Assembly (NCBI RefSeq): GCF_900113445.1
Contig: NZ_FOPJ01000008.1
Coordinates: 1-64,000 of the forward strand
Reading direction: 5' to 3'
Source of the DNA: Corynebacterium spheniscorum
Lineage (GTDB): Bacteria > Actinomycetota > Actinomycetes > Mycobacteriales > Mycobacteriaceae
Length of the DNA: 64,000 nt
Within the stretch, counting starts at the first letter, position 1, and the number at the start of each line of letters is the position of its first letter. Under the pieces are notes generated by a model. That model did no database searches. It was not told where the DNA came from and worked only from the letters and a program-made list of their open reading frames with translations. Made by a program: the position numbers and the translations under genes. This document shows positions 26,235-31,771 of this stretch, in pieces.

Positions 26235-26571
26235 TTAGGCGATCTCGTTGATGCGCAGCTGCAGGCCTTCGGGGTCGGTGAGGATGAGGTGGCGGCCGTA
26301 GTCCTCGCTGTGGATGGTGCCGGGCTGGAAACCCGCGGCCTGCACCTTTTCTTGGAAGGATTCCAGGGAATCAGTGGTTTCGAAGGAAAGCTCGAAAGCG
26401 GGGGAGTTCTCGCCCTCCTGCTGGGGGTGGAGAGCGAAGGAACCGCCGGCGGCTTCGAGTTCGCGCCAGACGGGGGGAGGACGTCTGCTCATTGAGGGTG
26501 AGGCCGAGGGCAGCGTAGAACTTTTCGGCCTGCGGGAGGTCGCCGCAGTAGCGAATAGAGAGGAGTTTCAT
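26235..26571 (-). pseudogene. VOC/glyoxalase-fold protein, frameshifted in a C6 run
   Basis: Two frames give a standard ~110-residue VOC protein when joined: MKLLSIRYCGDLPQAEKFYAALG... up to NEQTSSP, then VWRELEAAGG...HLILTDPEGLQLRINEIA. The break is at a run of six C on the minus strand (around 26476-26481); five C would keep the frame intact. Either a recent inactivation, a slippage-controlled (phase-variable) gene, or a homopolymer sequencing error. No enzymatic substrate can be assigned to the VOC fold. Confidence 0.8.
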
Positions 26572-27012: not shown

Positions 27013-27147
27013 ATATAGTTTTGCTGGCATAAAAGACCTCGGATGTGGTGTTTGAGCTGGGTTTTTGAGTTGGTGGCCTGGTCAGTGCTCCGGAACTCGC
27101 GAGGTTGCGGTTCTTAATACTCGTTCATAGAAGGAAGGTGTGGCGGT

Positions 27148-27303
27148 ATGGGTTTTTGGGTCATGGTTTTATGCGCAGTGGCCGCGATAGTTCTGGTGGT
27201 AAGCGGCCTTCGCAAGCGTGAGGATCCCAAGGTTGCGTGGTCCGCGATTGGGCTGGGTGTTGTGTTAGCGATTGTGGCGGTTGTGTTGGGCTACCCGAAG
27301 TGA
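27148..27303 (+). CDS. 51-residue two-helix membrane protein
   Basis: MGFWVMVLCAVAAIVLVVSG, a short KRED loop, then AWSAIGLGVVLAIVAVVLG, ending YPK. Two membrane helices, GGAAGG about 10 nt upstream. A frameshifted relative lies at 30079-30184, fused to the second copy of the large repeat, so this gene was part of the duplicated unit. Function unknown. Confidence 0.55.
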   Translation: MGFWVMVLCAVAAIVLVVSGLRKREDPKVAWSAIGLGVVLAIVAVVLGYPK

Positions 27304-27641
27304 CACTGCCCGCGGCAAGTGTCGGGGTGGTGGCGATCGGGGCGCTGGCGGGGCTGGTTGATCTCTCACGCGCATAGGCGTTGCGCAGCTCTTTGGAACC
27401 CGCCCATCGCGGCAGAATACAACAGGCTTCTGGATTCGTTGCTGGTGTGGACGGGGCTTGAGGGAGGCTCTCGCCTCATACGTCCTCGACGGCGGACGAA
27501 TCCGGATGGGTGGGCGATCAGTCGCGCGTCGGCGTGCGGTGCCTAATCCAGGAGGGGTGAGGAGAGCCCTGACCTATTTTTAATGCGATGCGCGAGTATT
27601 GATCTATATTGAAATCAATCGTTCAGCCCGTCTCGACCTTT

Positions 27642-27860
27642 GATCGGGAGTGGGCTGGATCTCTTTTAGTAGTGGGGGTGGGTATGCATTTTGTTCACTA
27701 ACCCGACAGCTACGGCCAATTAAGAACAAGGACCGGTTCTGGACTGCTGCCGAAGTAGGCAGCGGAACCGGTCATATTGCTAAGGAGCGTGACACACTCC
27801 GCCTAGCCCTTGGCCCCAACAACCCTCCGGCTCAGTACTAGTAATACGGGGCAATCTAGT
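27642..27860 (+). repeat. Direct repeat copy 1 flanking the GntR-ABC cassette
   Basis: About 219 bp, collinear with 30130-30343. The longest identical run is 26 nt (27750-27775). It contains a hairpin: GACCGGTTC (27731-27739) with GAACCGGTC (27765-27773), and inner GCTGCC (27746-27751) with GGCAGC (27758-27763). One frame is open through both copies and shares EVGSGTGH, but I see no translation signal that would support a protein. Confidence 0.75.
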
Positions 27861-27929
27861 TATCTTTTAGCCGTGCAGTAGGCCCCAGTTGCAGGCGTGC
27901 AGGGGTCTTTTGGCCACGCCTCTAGAATG

Positions 27930-27960
27930 CCTACTGTTCATGTACACTATGAACAGTAGG
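27930..27960. promoter_or_regulatory. Perfect 12-bp-arm operator of the GntR cassette
   Basis: CCTACTGTTCAT (27930-27941) and ATGAACAGTAGG (27949-27960) are perfect inverted repeats around GTACACT. TACACT (27943-27948) is a good -10 box in the centre, and the right arm runs into the AGGAGG ribosome site. This is where a YtrA-type GntR dimer would autoregulate the operon. Confidence 0.75.
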
Positions 27961-27968
27961 AGGTGCTG

Positions 27969-28346
27969 ATGGACATCATCGTGAGCAATGCGAGTTCACA
28001 GCCGATCTATGCCCAAATCAAAGATCAGCTTAAAGCTGCGATCATGAACGGGCAGCTGTCTGAAGGTGAAAAGTTACCCTCAATTCGCAGGTTGGCATCC
28101 CAGCTCAGGGTGTCTGTCATCACGACGAAGCGTGCTTATGACGAGCTGGAAGTTGAAGGCTTTATCAACACGATGCAAGGGCGCGGCAGTTTCGTGGCAT
28201 CGAAAAATATCGATCTGTTGAAGGAAGCGCATCGCCAAAAAGTAGAAGATCAGTTGCGAGCTGCTCTGGAATTGGCTGCTGCTGCGGGGCTGTCTCTCCA
28301 AGATTTAAAGGATCTGATCGATTTGTTAGGAGCAGCAGATGAATAG
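27969..28346 (+). CDS. GntR family regulator, YtrA subfamily
   Basis: 125 residues, ATG 5 nt after AGGAGG. Winged HTH: QPIYAQIKDQLKAAIMNGQLSEGEKLPSIRRLASQLRVSVITTKRAYDELEVEGFI, the GntR signature; the remaining ~50 residues form a short helical dimerisation tail, the mark of the YtrA subfamily, which lacks a large ligand domain. The stop overlaps the ATPase gene start. YtrA regulators usually repress linked ABC transporters that respond to wall-active antibiotics or amphipathic peptides. Confidence 0.88.
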   Translation: MDIIVSNASSQPIYAQIKDQLKAAIMNGQLSEGEKLPSIRRLASQLRVSVITTKRAYDELEVEGFINTMQGRGSFVASKNIDLLKEAHRQKVEDQLRAALELAAAAGLSLQDLKDLIDLLGAADE

Positions 28347-29184
28347 TATCGCTATCTCGGGGCTGATGAAGTCATACCCGAGCTTCACTCTCGGCCCGAT
28401 AGACTTTAATGTCCCGCAGGGGGCCATTGTTGGTTTTGTAGGCGAGAATGGTGCAGGTAAGTCCACCACTCTGCGTCTGATTCTCGGTCTGGCAATCCCG
28501 GACGCTGGAAACATTAGCGTGCTGGGTGAACGTGCTGATCTCAGTAACCCGGCTCCGCGTGAGCGCATCGGGGTTGTCTTCGACGACATTAGCCTGCCGG
28601 GTAGTTTCACCGTCGCGAATGCCAACCGGTTCGGCAAGCGACTCTATAAACAATGGGATGAAAGAACCTTCGCTGATTACTGTCAGCGCTTTAACCTACC
28701 GACAAGCAAGAAAATCAGCGAGCTTTCGCGTGGCATGCGCATGAAATTGGGATTAGCGACGGCACTTTCACACGAAGCCGAGTTACTGATTTTCGACGAA
28801 GCCACCAGTGGCCTTGACCCGGTAATTCGTGACGAAATACTCGACATCATGCTCGAGTTCATCCAGGACCCCTCGCATTCGATCCTCTTTTCTTCCCATA
28901 TTGTCTCCGATATCGATAAGGCCGCCGACTACATCGCCTTCATTCACGAGGGCAAGCTTAAGTTCATGGAGCAAAAGGATGAGCTCCTCGACTCCTGGCG
29001 GTTGGTCTCGCTAACCAACGACCAAGCTGACCAGGTTGAACCCACTCAGGTGTTAGGGCGACGTCGCCATGACTTTGGTCAAGAGCTCATCATCCGCTCT
29101 GAAGCCGTACCTGCCCGGGCTCAAGCGAGTAGACCAACCGTCGAAGACATCATGGTCTACACCATTAAAGGAGAACATCGATGA
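28339..29184 (+). CDS. ABC transporter ATP-binding protein
   Basis: 281 residues: Walker A GENGAGKST (about 34-42), signature LSRGMRMKLGLA, Walker B LLIFDEATSGLDP (Ala replaces the usual Pro of DEPTSGLD) and switch LFSSHI. C-terminal extension of about 70 residues. Overlaps gntR by 8 bp and the permease by 4 bp, so the three genes are one translationally coupled unit. Likely an exporter or sensor of antimicrobial peptides, by analogy with YtrA/PmtR-linked transporters. Confidence 0.88.
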   Translation: MNSIAISGLMKSYPSFTLGPIDFNVPQGAIVGFVGENGAGKSTTLRLILGLAIPDAGNISVLGERADLSNPAPRERIGVVFDDISLPGSFTVANANRFGKRLYKQWDERTFADYCQRFNLPTSKKISELSRGMRMKLGLATALSHEAELLIFDEATSGLDPVIRDEILDIMLEFIQDPSHSILFSSHIVSDIDKAADYIAFIHEGKLKFMEQKDELLDSWRLVSLTNDQADQVEPTQVLGRRRHDFGQELIIRSEAVPARAQASRPTVEDIMVYTIKGEHR

Positions 29185-29810
29185 AAGCCGTGCTCTACAA
29201 GGACTTCACCGTCAACCGCAACTACCTGCTCATCCTCGCAGTAATCACCCTTGTATTGAGCGGGCTGAGCATTTACATGCGCGAGCCGGTCATCTTCCTT
29301 TTCCTCTTCGCCATGATCGGCCTGCTGTACTTCACCGCGGTCTTCGCTCGTGATGCTGAATCGAACGTCAACCGTACTCTCCTTGCTGGCCCAATCACTA
29401 AAACTCTGCTCGTCAACGCCAACTACCTTGCCCTCGTGATCCTGGGGGTAGTGGCGTTCGTTGTCTCTGGCATCGTGGTGACCGTGATGACATCAATGCC
29501 CTGGCAAGATGCCGTGTTCTTTGCTAGCGGATCATTCACCATCACGCTATTACTGAGCATCATCCAATTACCACTGTTCTACAAATTTGGCCCCGACAAA
29601 GCCAGACTCTTTTATATCGCAGTCTTCATCCTCGTCTTCGCGGGCTCCCAATTCCTCGGTGATCACAAAGACAGTCTCTATGAATGGGTTGCACAGATCC
29701 TCACCCTTCCAGCACTCGCCAACGCGGGCATCCTCCTAGGAAGCACCCTTGTGCTCGCGGTCATTTCGCTGGTAGCGAGTAGAGCAATCATGGCACAGAA
29801 AGAATTCTAA
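29181..29810 (+). CDS. ABC-2 transporter permease
   Basis: 209 residues, six predicted membrane helices, starting MKAVLYKDFTVNRNYLLIL, the amphipathic opening of ABC2_membrane_5-type permeases found with GntR-ABC operons. Ends just before the second flanking repeat unit. Partner of the preceding ATPase, probably as a dimer of each. Confidence 0.8.
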   Translation: MKAVLYKDFTVNRNYLLILAVITLVLSGLSIYMREPVIFLFLFAMIGLLYFTAVFARDAESNVNRTLLAGPITKTLLVNANYLALVILGVVAFVVSGIVVTVMTSMPWQDAVFFASGSFTITLLLSIIQLPLFYKFGPDKARLFYIAVFILVFAGSQFLGDHKDSLYEWVAQILTLPALANAGILLGSTLVLAVISLVASRAIMAQKEF

Positions 29811-30078
29811 CCACCACCAAACTTGCCAAAAGAGGCACAAGGCAACAGTCTGCGTCCGCCATTACACACTCTCACCGGCTGCATTGTTTGCACCTCTGAT
29901 GGCACGGTCGAGGACCATGATGGAGGGCTCATATCGCGGAAGCTTTGTCCGAAGGACACGATGGTAAAACCAAGCCCTTCGAAGTTTTGGCTCATTTGAA
30001 CGACTCTCCACCTTTCGTAGGCGATCCCCCGGATGGTGAATCGGTCTAAGAGTAGGTTCAAAAAGAAGGTATGGCGGT
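29811..30078. other. Gap without a supported gene
   Basis: 268 bp between the permease and the small-gene remnant. No frame has both a start signal and a recognisable product. It may be debris of an older gene. Confidence 0.4.
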
Positions 30079-30184
30079 ATGGGTTCTTGGCGTGGTTTTC
30101 TGCGCGGTGGACGCGATAGCTTTGGTGGTGATCGGGCTGGATCTCTTTCAGCGGTGGGGGATGGGCACACATTTTGTCCATTAA
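30079..30184 (+). pseudogene. Remnant of the 51-residue membrane protein gene
   Basis: The leader and start (GGTATGGCGGTATGGGTTCTTGG) align with 27140-27160, but two bases are missing after the fourth codon. Shifting frame restores VVFCAVDAIALVVIGL, matching VMVLCAVAAIVLVVSGL. The remnant then runs straight into repeat copy 2, lacking the ~340 bp of spacer found between gene and repeat in copy 1. Confidence 0.65.
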
Positions 30185-30343
30185 CCCGAAAGCTACGCCT
30201 GATTAAGAGCAAGGACCGGCCCTGGGCTCCTACCGAAGTAGGCAGCGGAACCGGTCATGTTGCTAAGAAGCATAACAAACTCCGCCCAGTCCTTAGACAC
30301 AACAATCCTCCTGGTCAGTACCAGTAATACGGGCCAATCTAGT
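30130..30343 (+). repeat. Direct repeat copy 2 flanking the GntR-ABC cassette
   Basis: Diverged copy of 27642-27860 in the same orientation, 2.5 kb away; identical 26-nt run at 30233-30258. The hairpin is altered but still possible: GACCGG (30214-30219) with CCGGTC (30251-30256) and inner CCTAC (30229-30233) with GTAGG (30238-30242). Confidence 0.75.
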
Positions 30344-31697: not shown

Positions 31698-31771
31698 TGG
31701 AGCCGATGACGGGAATCGAACCCGCGTATTCAGCTTGGGAAGCTGATGTTCTACCATTGAACTACATCGGC
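31698..31771 (-). tRNA. tRNA-Gly(CCC)
   Basis: Complete cloverleaf on the minus strand: acceptor GCCGATG/CATCGGC, D arm GTTCAATGGTAGAAC, anticodon stem TCAGC/GCTGA with loop TTCCCAA (anticodon CCC), T arm GGG-TTCGATT-CCC with the TTCGA loop. CCA is encoded (31698-31700). Discriminator is U. The adjoining accessory region makes it a likely integration target. Confidence 0.97.

Follow-up and report, generated by a model that had tools for sequence, protein, structure and literature searches.

A repeat pair around a GntR-ABC cassette in Corynebacterium spheniscorum is very probably a duplicated relic of AbiF-associated RNA genes

Results

Structure of the locus

The window, by which we mean the whole stretch of 64,000 nucleotides that was analysed, holds a YtrA-type GntR regulator gene and its ABC transporter genes bracketed, as the original prediction had it, by two diverged, collinear repeats (Table 1). 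The copies, 27638-27860 and 30120-30343, are ~83% identical within their own genome and keep almost the same register, with 83% identity over 187 nt between 27674-27860 and 30157-30343 (offset 2483) and 80% between 27638-27678 and 30120-30160 (offset 2482); blastn aligns them at 82.6% over 224 columns and, with an E-value of 1.4e-59 for a copy against the whole genome, chance is excluded by far. Copy 2 aligns from about 10 nt before its proposed start at 30130. Two further details also proved right: a run of 26 nt is identical amid the drifted rest (27750-27775 and 30233-30258) and coincides with the 5' arm and loop of the RNA element called B' below, and copy 2 is joined to a duplicate of a 51-residue gene (27131-27209 versus 30062-30138, 82% over 79 columns) that is truncated and frameshifted. 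The boundary of the putative duplication unit is deduced from these two separate matching stretches.

The full-length repeat occurs as this sole pair in the genome, the third, partial match being 58 bp of element A alone (C21:120289). The full repeat was absent from all 200 relatives, even as a single copy, and hence neither an empty nor an amplified form was observed; a plasmid search with the repeat gave no match. Deletion or amplification between the 83%-identical copies is possible, and we saw no sign of either.

Table 1. Features of the repeat-flanked locus, in window coordinates
Feature	Position	Strand	Remarks
Repeat copy 1, putative duplication unit	27131..27860	+	51-aa gene (27148-27303), spacer, element A, IS1249-like end, element B', tail
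Element A, copy 1	27610..27676	+	AbiF-type RNA hairpin; CM R2 76.5 bits; 12/13 consensus pairs
Worn IS1249-type terminal repeat, copy 1	27680..27704	-	5/25 mismatches vs copy-2 sequence
Element B', copy 1	27716..27785	-	AbiF-type RNA; CM R1 76.3 bits; 12/14 consensus pairs
Inverted repeat before gntR	27931..27959		CTACTGTTCAT-N7-ATGAACAGTAG; putative autoregulatory operator
YtrA-type GntR regulator	27963..28346	+	Nearest family PmtR, 122 bits (cut-off 200)
ABC ATPase	28339..29184	+	Nearest family PmtA, 237 bits (cut-off 350)
ABC2_membrane_5 permease	29181..29810	+	Family match
Phage terminase large subunit gene fragment	29870..30070	-	PHROG 2699, E 5.3e-8
Repeat copy 2	30062..30343	+	5' piece of 51-aa gene joined within element A (3' half kept), followed by IS1249-like end and B'
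Element A, copy 2	30120..30162	+	5' half lost at fusion with 51-aa gene piece
Solo IS1249-type terminal repeat, copy 2	30163..30187	-	2/22 mismatches vs L156 element end
Element B', copy 2	30199..30268	-	Canonical AbiF-type RNA; CM R1 86.7 bits; 14/14 consensus pairs
tRNA-Gly(CCC)	31698..31771	-	Conserved anchor, edge of variable island

The GntR-ABC cassette

An inverted repeat on the gntR side is recognisable before all nine homologous cassettes viewed, and the one in the window is probably an autoregulatory operator. The nearest families of the regulator and the ATPase are PmtR and PmtA of phenol-soluble-modulin export, whose curated cut-offs are not reached; the cassette resembles that exporter in combining an ABC ATPase and a permease with a GntR regulator of the YtrA type, and differs from it in these scores and in having a single ATPase/permease pair. 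The "resistance-type" label given to it earlier finds no direct support in these matches. At E<=1e-60 the cassette was found in 2 of 131 Corynebacterium genomes, its own included, the nearest named relatives belong to Actinomycetaceae (75-80%), and by these comparisons it was probably imported. It adjoins the phage terminase debris, within a variable island at tRNA-Gly: 20 relatives compared at the dcd anchor had none of the 11 queried window genes left of tRNA-Gly, in a comparison for which matches to the ECF ATPase needed at least 40% and those to the ABC ATPase at least 45% identity to be kept.

Two RNA elements and the end of an insertion sequence

The repeat contains two hairpin RNA elements that face each other, A on the plus and B' on the minus strand, and their decay is complementary, with a good A in copy 1 and a good B' in copy 2. 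The former has a normally spaced -10 box (TATATT) and a predicted fold of -22.4 kcal/mol (z -3.3), and the latter has a UUCG loop and the -10 sequence TATGCT; the B' of copy 1 is worn, its -10 mutated (CACGCT), its apical stem re-registered and its UUCG loop gone. Counted by eye, B' carries about nine changes from the consensus in copy 1 and one in copy 2 (binomial p 0.02, post hoc). The survivors in the genome are the A of copy 1, the B' of copy 2 and a further A on contig C21; all three have a plausible -10 box and are possibly expressed. The pair counts of the genome's own elements (26/28 and 24/26) are slightly under those of intact and other orphan loci. No AbiF (Abi_2/HEPN RNase) gene adjoins the window elements, no AbiF remnant was detectable in the stretches searched around them, and the single Abi_2 match in the genome, of 23 bits, lies on another contig (C9). 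Two candidates were rejected: a known Rfam RNA, the repeat having no Rfam match, and one long RNA across the whole repeat, because elsewhere A and B' are found apart from each other, with flanks that fail to align.

A single terminal inverted repeat of IS1249, an IS256-related element, separates A from B'. The copy-2 sequence has 2/22 mismatches to the end of the L156 element, with 0 such matches expected by chance, and 1/22 to an end that adjoins an IS1249 fragment at another place in the genome; it resembles an IS1249 terminus and differs from the element in that one end is left and the transposase (NF033544) is absent from the window repeats, all seven partial matches in the genome being on other contigs. 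The transposase of the L156 element scores 528 bits in that family. In genome G107 a whole IS1249, with that score of 528 bits, splits B' from abiF, and an uninterrupted counterpart exists in G208.

A and B' across Corynebacterium

In 131 Corynebacterium genomes, CM matches numbered 38 for B' (31 genomes) and 44 for A (38 genomes). Abi_2 follows on the same strand within 600 nt downstream of 18/38 B' and 18/44 A, the distance being 94-123 nt in 29 of these 36; 72 Abi_2 places entered the tally, and the rest, inspected by eye, held none within 600 nt behind an RNA match. Directly downstream of A, Abi_2 is recognised in L006, L008 and L025 with E-values of 2e-47 to 6e-51. By tblastn, 77 loci (33 B' and 40 A fetched, and four own) divide into 26 with an intact AbiF, 11 with a remnant and 40 with none adjacent. 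The 82 CM matches include five left out of these loci, namely the four elements of G100 (three B' and one A), which were viewed in L128, and the A of G014, which stands in tandem behind its B' before the same AbiF; the 30-bit B_G056 and B_G117, which lack a -10 box, are possible false matches and were counted anyway, the second of them resembling a plain terminator hairpin.

All 26 intact AbiF have the HEPN motif R-N-x3-H, and a -10 box of the form TANNNT precedes all 26 intact loci (background 5.5-5.8%). Consensus pairs form in 97.5% of cells for B' and 97.0% for A, and the covariation score of each is reached by 0 of 500 shuffles, the true register scoring highest. On viral contigs bearing AbiF, B' is present in 5/5, and on actinobacterial plasmids B' or A stands just before AbiF in the 4/4 examined, these being the best 2 of 250 and the best 2 of 202 records. 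At intact loci, A and B' lie upstream of the toxin gene, in its orientation and with a predicted promoter, and on sequence evidence they are two RNA types without an Rfam match that belong to AbiF systems.

The excerpts of PMC12373285 describe RCd22 of Clostridioides difficile as located before abiF, binding the AbiF protein and acting both in cis and in trans, an antitoxin similar to type III RNA antitoxins. Intact A and B' loci resemble it in having, immediately before the gene of an Abi_2/AbiF HEPN RNase, a structured RNA with its own promoter and hairpin motif(s), and the tandem B' and A of G014 recall the two RCd22 motifs of that text; they differ in being of two subtypes, in lacking an adjacent toxin in the window and at 40 of the 77 loci, and in being unmatched to the abiF motif RF03085. 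For the latter, window copy 1 gave no match at E<=5 and L016 and L025 (one B' and one A locus) gave none at E<=10, nor was there any at the gathering score in 16 loci or in the window; because of this, it is the position, the partner protein and the hairpin form that speak for a shared mechanism, and by analogy A and B' may bind and restrain the AbiF RNase. The PbAbiF-ncRNA complex (Zilberzwige-Tal et al., via the excerpts of PMC12373285), a forerunner type of Cas13, joins an AbiF homodimer to two RNA copies, as would be expected of the single-hairpin A or B'; a link of Cas13 to AbiD/F also appears in the excerpts of PMC12165695.

Discussion

We consider it very probable that the two ~215-bp repeats are copies of one relic, namely two AbiF-associated RNA genes in convergent orientation, A on the plus and B' on the minus strand, from which the AbiF genes have gone. 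Each RNA would once have stood, with its own -10 box, before an AbiF gene and, by analogy, have restrained that RNase; the likely route of loss here would be the insertion of an IS1249-type element at the B'/abiF junction and then an adjacent deletion, after which a single IS end remained between the two elements. The whole unit, with the 51-aa gene at its start, was duplicated; half of A and, with it, about 430 bp in all would have gone from copy 2, and the GntR-ABC cassette and phage debris would have ended up between the copies. Since the searched stretches hold no detectable AbiF remnant, its former presence here can only be inferred, and the presumed original layout, two convergent AbiF systems, was nowhere seen intact. 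The original prediction instead saw a mobile resistance cassette that used the repeats for recombination or integration and was inserted or duplicated through them. The duplication stands, as does the apparent foreignness of a cassette that is rare in the genus (2/131) and bracketed by repeats; the repeats as its vehicle do not, as AbiF RNAs together with an IS end account for their content, and the 82 matches to A and B' lie mostly away from the cassette, in many genomes that lack it. Furthermore, the three genes between the repeats that were scanned include no recombinase, and the cassette of G097, the only other Corynebacterium to have one, has no flanking direct repeat of at least 30 nt, although it does lie 5-6 kb from an intact AbiF/B' locus. 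We regard the mobile cassette as a very unlikely explanation of the repeats.

Whether orphan RNAs in general are relics or retained antitoxins is a separate matter, and here we favour relics. The somewhat probable reading is that every orphan, those of the window included, is neutral debris whose toxin was inactivated first, by deletion or IS insertion, and whose RNA has not decayed yet: AbiF remnants persist at 11 of the 77 loci, IS1249-type ends lie beside elements in G107, G076, G100 and the window, and decay is visible in the B' of copy 1 and the A of copy 2. Against it speak 39 loci without a trace of AbiF in 2 kb (less at contig ends), mostly with near-perfect hairpins and in some cases common to several species, five of them beside the same gene, which exceeds what quick decay would lead one to expect. 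The alternative, that orphan A and B' are selected as trans-acting RNA antitoxins, conferring immunity or anti-addiction against AbiF from phages and plasmids, is possible but rather doubtful. It gains from the majority of loci (40/77) being without an adjacent AbiF, even if one of the 40, G107, keeps its AbiF behind IS1249; from half of the orphan-bearing genomes (15/30) having no Abi_2 match of at least 40 bits; from the AbiF systems with A or B' found on viral contigs and plasmids; from the trans activity of RCd22 (excerpts of PMC12373285); and from the complementary decay in the window, which leaves one A and one B' with a -10 box. A -10 box is retained in 28 of the 40 orphans, but the rtcB-side orphans in five species have none. 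The hairpins of the 36 non-own orphans appear as intact as the cognate ones (171/178 and 279/287 pairs, against 161/164 and 172/178 at intact loci), but these counts are biased toward the model, which also selects the matches. Within the window, B' has not changed more slowly between the copies than the tail (7/57 versus 6/45 sites). In four pairs of orphan orthologs, the core differs at 11/172 sites and the flanks at 122/1226 (Fisher p 0.16), a fifth pair, B_G013b/B_G077b (core 5/43), and two hardly alignable flanks having been left out; this is suggestive of selection at most and, being nonsignificant, fits neutral debris as well.

Orphan antitoxins, or anti-addiction modules, that possibly guard against incoming toxins are familiar from protein toxin-antitoxin systems; the likeness lies in an antitoxin without its toxin, the difference in the antitoxin here being RNA. 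The titles and abstract openings retrieved from openly licensed PMC literature contained nothing on orphan RNA antitoxins or on AbiF in Corynebacterium. A puzzling repeat has thereby led to two Rfam-unmatched RNA types of a defence system thought ancestral to Cas13. At its broadest, and a shade more speculatively than the selection of orphans as such, Corynebacterium might harbour widespread solitary, toxin-free A and B' antitoxins that disarm in trans the Cas13-related AbiF RNases of phages and plasmids, the window locus being one station with the two RNA types split between its copies. The question of whether an antitoxin RNA alone can protect a cell against an AbiF from a mobile element has become testable, and in the sampled genomes A and B' RNAs without an adjacent toxin are at least as frequent as those with one.

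The repeats as RNA elements

The two direct repeats that flank the GntR-ABC cassette are, we conclude, duplicated orphan RNA elements of the AbiF type, that is, hairpins without an adjacent gene for the HEPN RNase AbiF, and they bear the scar of an insertion sequence. The original prediction of a diverged pair with a 26-nt run of identity and a piece of the 51-aa gene ahead of copy 2 was borne out in all three respects, the copies aligning at ~83% identity over 224 columns. As this piece precedes copy 2, the duplicated unit probably extended from ~27131 to 27860, and ~430 bp would then have been lost inside copy 2. The full repeat occurs as this pair alone in the source genome (2.46 Mb searched). 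Repeat-derived matches were found in 37 of 201 genomes (200 relatives and the source genome); none of the 200 relatives holds the complete repeat, and those with matches share one of two short stretches, A and B.

Features of the window and RNA elements of the source genome
Feature	Position	Strand	Bits	−10 box	Remarks
Copy 1	27638-27860
Copy 2	30120-30343
26-nt identity	27750-27775 = 30233-30258
Stretch A in relatives	within 27620-27678
Stretch B in relatives	within 27722-27787
Copy-1 A		+	76.5	TATATT	looks sound
Copy-1 B'		−		lost (CACGCT)	consensus apical stem lost, alternative stem folds
Copy-2 A		+			halved
Copy-2 B'		−	86.7	TATGCT	14/14 pairs; stem U-A replaces usual C-G; looks sound
Further A, contig C21			65.9		sound
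IS1249-like end	30166-30187	−
51-aa gene piece	30062-30138			aligns with 27131-27209
Cassette	27963-29810				GntR-ATPase-permease
Palindrome	27931-27959				probable GntR operator (predicted)
Terminase large subunit fragment	29870-30070	−			phage gene
Two overlapping frames	26235-26571	−			resemble a frameshifted glyoxalase-type gene; 26235-26492 without family match

Alignment of the loci showed that each stretch forms a hairpin whose edges are conserved; beyond these edges the loci do not align with one another. We took B', the reverse complement of B, as the RNA strand because of its UUCG-type loop, its T-rich 3' tail and its orientation, which is that of the AbiF gene behind it. Paired cells make up 97.5% in B' and 97.0% in A, with 6 and 13 cells, respectively, changed on both sides, and the covariation score was equalled in 0 of 500 shuffles for either element. 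Shifting the partner by 1-3 columns abolishes the covariation, a comparison in which structures derived from the same sequences favour the true register. Rfam gave no match for copy 1 at E<=5; at E<=10, the single B' locus and the single A locus searched gave weak matches to unrelated families alone, and the known abiF motif (RF03085) was absent from these results. The AbiF-RNA system is of a known kind; the A and B' types, having no Rfam match, and their frequent orphan state form a new variation within it.

Association with AbiF

An Abi_2 (PF07751) gene stands immediately 3' of A in three of the inspected stretches (L006, L008, L025; E 2e-47 to 6e-51). Across 131 Corynebacterium genomes, the covariance models gave 38 hits in 31 genomes for B' (R1) and 44 hits in 38 genomes for A (R2), and PF07751 was matched in 89; a same-strand Abi_2 match followed within 600 nt in 18/38 and 18/44 cases, and the distance from RNA to domain was 94-123 nt in 29 of 36 associations. 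With 26 intact AbiF proteins as tblastn queries against 77 loci, AbiF was intact in 26, truncated or broken in 11 and not adjacent in 40, the last group including G107, whose AbiF sits beyond an IS1249. All 26 intact proteins carry the HEPN motif R-N-x3-H. A −10-like TANNNT precedes the RNA at near-constant spacing in 26/26 intact, 9/11 remnant and 28/40 orphan loci, the background at random places being 5.5-5.8%. One AbiF, in G014, is preceded by B' and A in tandem.

Of five viral contigs with genes for relatives of a B'-type AbiF, all contain B' (42-88 bits), immediately ahead of the AbiF match in L212-L214 and ahead of a gene interrupted by ~1.5-2 kb in L215 and L216; A was found in none of the five. 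Among four plasmids inspected, B' lies just ahead of an 'Abi family protein' in those of Arthrobacter and Rhodococcus pyridinivorans, and A in those of R. fascians and Mycolicibacterium (one plasmid each). The RNA/AbiF pairs therefore travel on mobile elements.

In five species (L167, L169, L172, L174, L175), a solitary A of near-identical sequence, without a −10 box, occupies the same place. The gene next to it encodes RtcB RNA ligase (tested in L023 and G051; 364 bits in the latter), setting an RNA-repair enzyme next to an RNase-antitoxin-type RNA.

Probable loss of AbiF and the fate of the RNAs

Near A and B' of the window, tblastn with the 26 intact AbiF queries found no remnant of the gene, and the sole Abi_2 match in the source genome (23 bits) is on another contig, C9. 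Between A and B', GGGTTAATGGACAAAATGTGTG differs at 2 of 22 positions from the end of an IS1249 element, with 0 such matches expected by chance, and by 1 mismatch from an end adjoining an IS1249 fragment elsewhere in the source genome. In G107, B' is followed immediately by an IS1249 (528 bits), whose two ends and 8-bp target duplication were seen by eye, and G208 holds the uninterrupted counterpart with AbiF intact. The orphan elements of G076 and G100 also have IS1249-like ends beside them, and in G106 such an end is found ~0.8 kb upstream of the locus with the AbiF remnant. In the ancestor of the window, an IS probably inserted at the B'/abiF junction, an adjacent deletion following.

In Clostridioides difficile, abiF is preceded by the RNA RCd22, which binds AbiF and can neutralise the protein both in cis and in trans (PMC12373285). 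A and B' resemble this system in position, partner protein and form, and by analogy should bind and neutralise AbiF in the same manner. That toxin-less RNAs are kept for protection would fit the number of orphans, their intact hairpins, their −10 boxes, the sharing of some among several species and the mobility of AbiF itself; we nevertheless consider it rather unlikely, as certain orphan groups lack a −10 box, the detection model favours intact hairpins, and the orphan core differs at 11/172 sites against 122/1226 in the flanks, a conservation that is not significant (p 0.16).

The cassette and its island

The cassette between the repeats is probably an import. Its regulator and ATPase match PmtR and PmtA best, both under the cut-off; at E<=1e-60 the ATPase is present in 2 of the 131 Corynebacterium genomes, the source genome being one of them, and its named relatives at 75-80% are Actinomycetaceae. 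The near-perfect palindrome ahead of gntR is shared with the homologous cassettes of Actinomycetaceae and G097, being recognisable, in some with a few changes, in all nine viewed. The terminase fragment separates the ABC genes from copy 2. In G097 (L080), the cassette has one part of a type IIG restriction-methylation protein on each side and lies within a defence island with matches to JetA, JetB and JetC (Wadjet) and a DUF262-like protein (HEC-06/Orf5/SspE matches), and an AbiD/F protein and B' lie 5-6 kb away.

Nineteen of 20 relatives have a tRNA-Gly(CCC) upstream of dcd, at a distance of no more than 0.7 kb in 18 of the 19, and none of the window genes queried from the left side of this tRNA gene is present at that place in the 20; the conserved anchor and the absent genes thus mark a variable island. 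A or B' elements occur there in 3 of the 20 relatives (L118, L128, L130). In L128 (G100), two AbiF genes are accompanied by a truncated third and by several RNAs of the A/B' type, of which some are solitary, so that AbiF may have a hot spot beside this tRNA gene.
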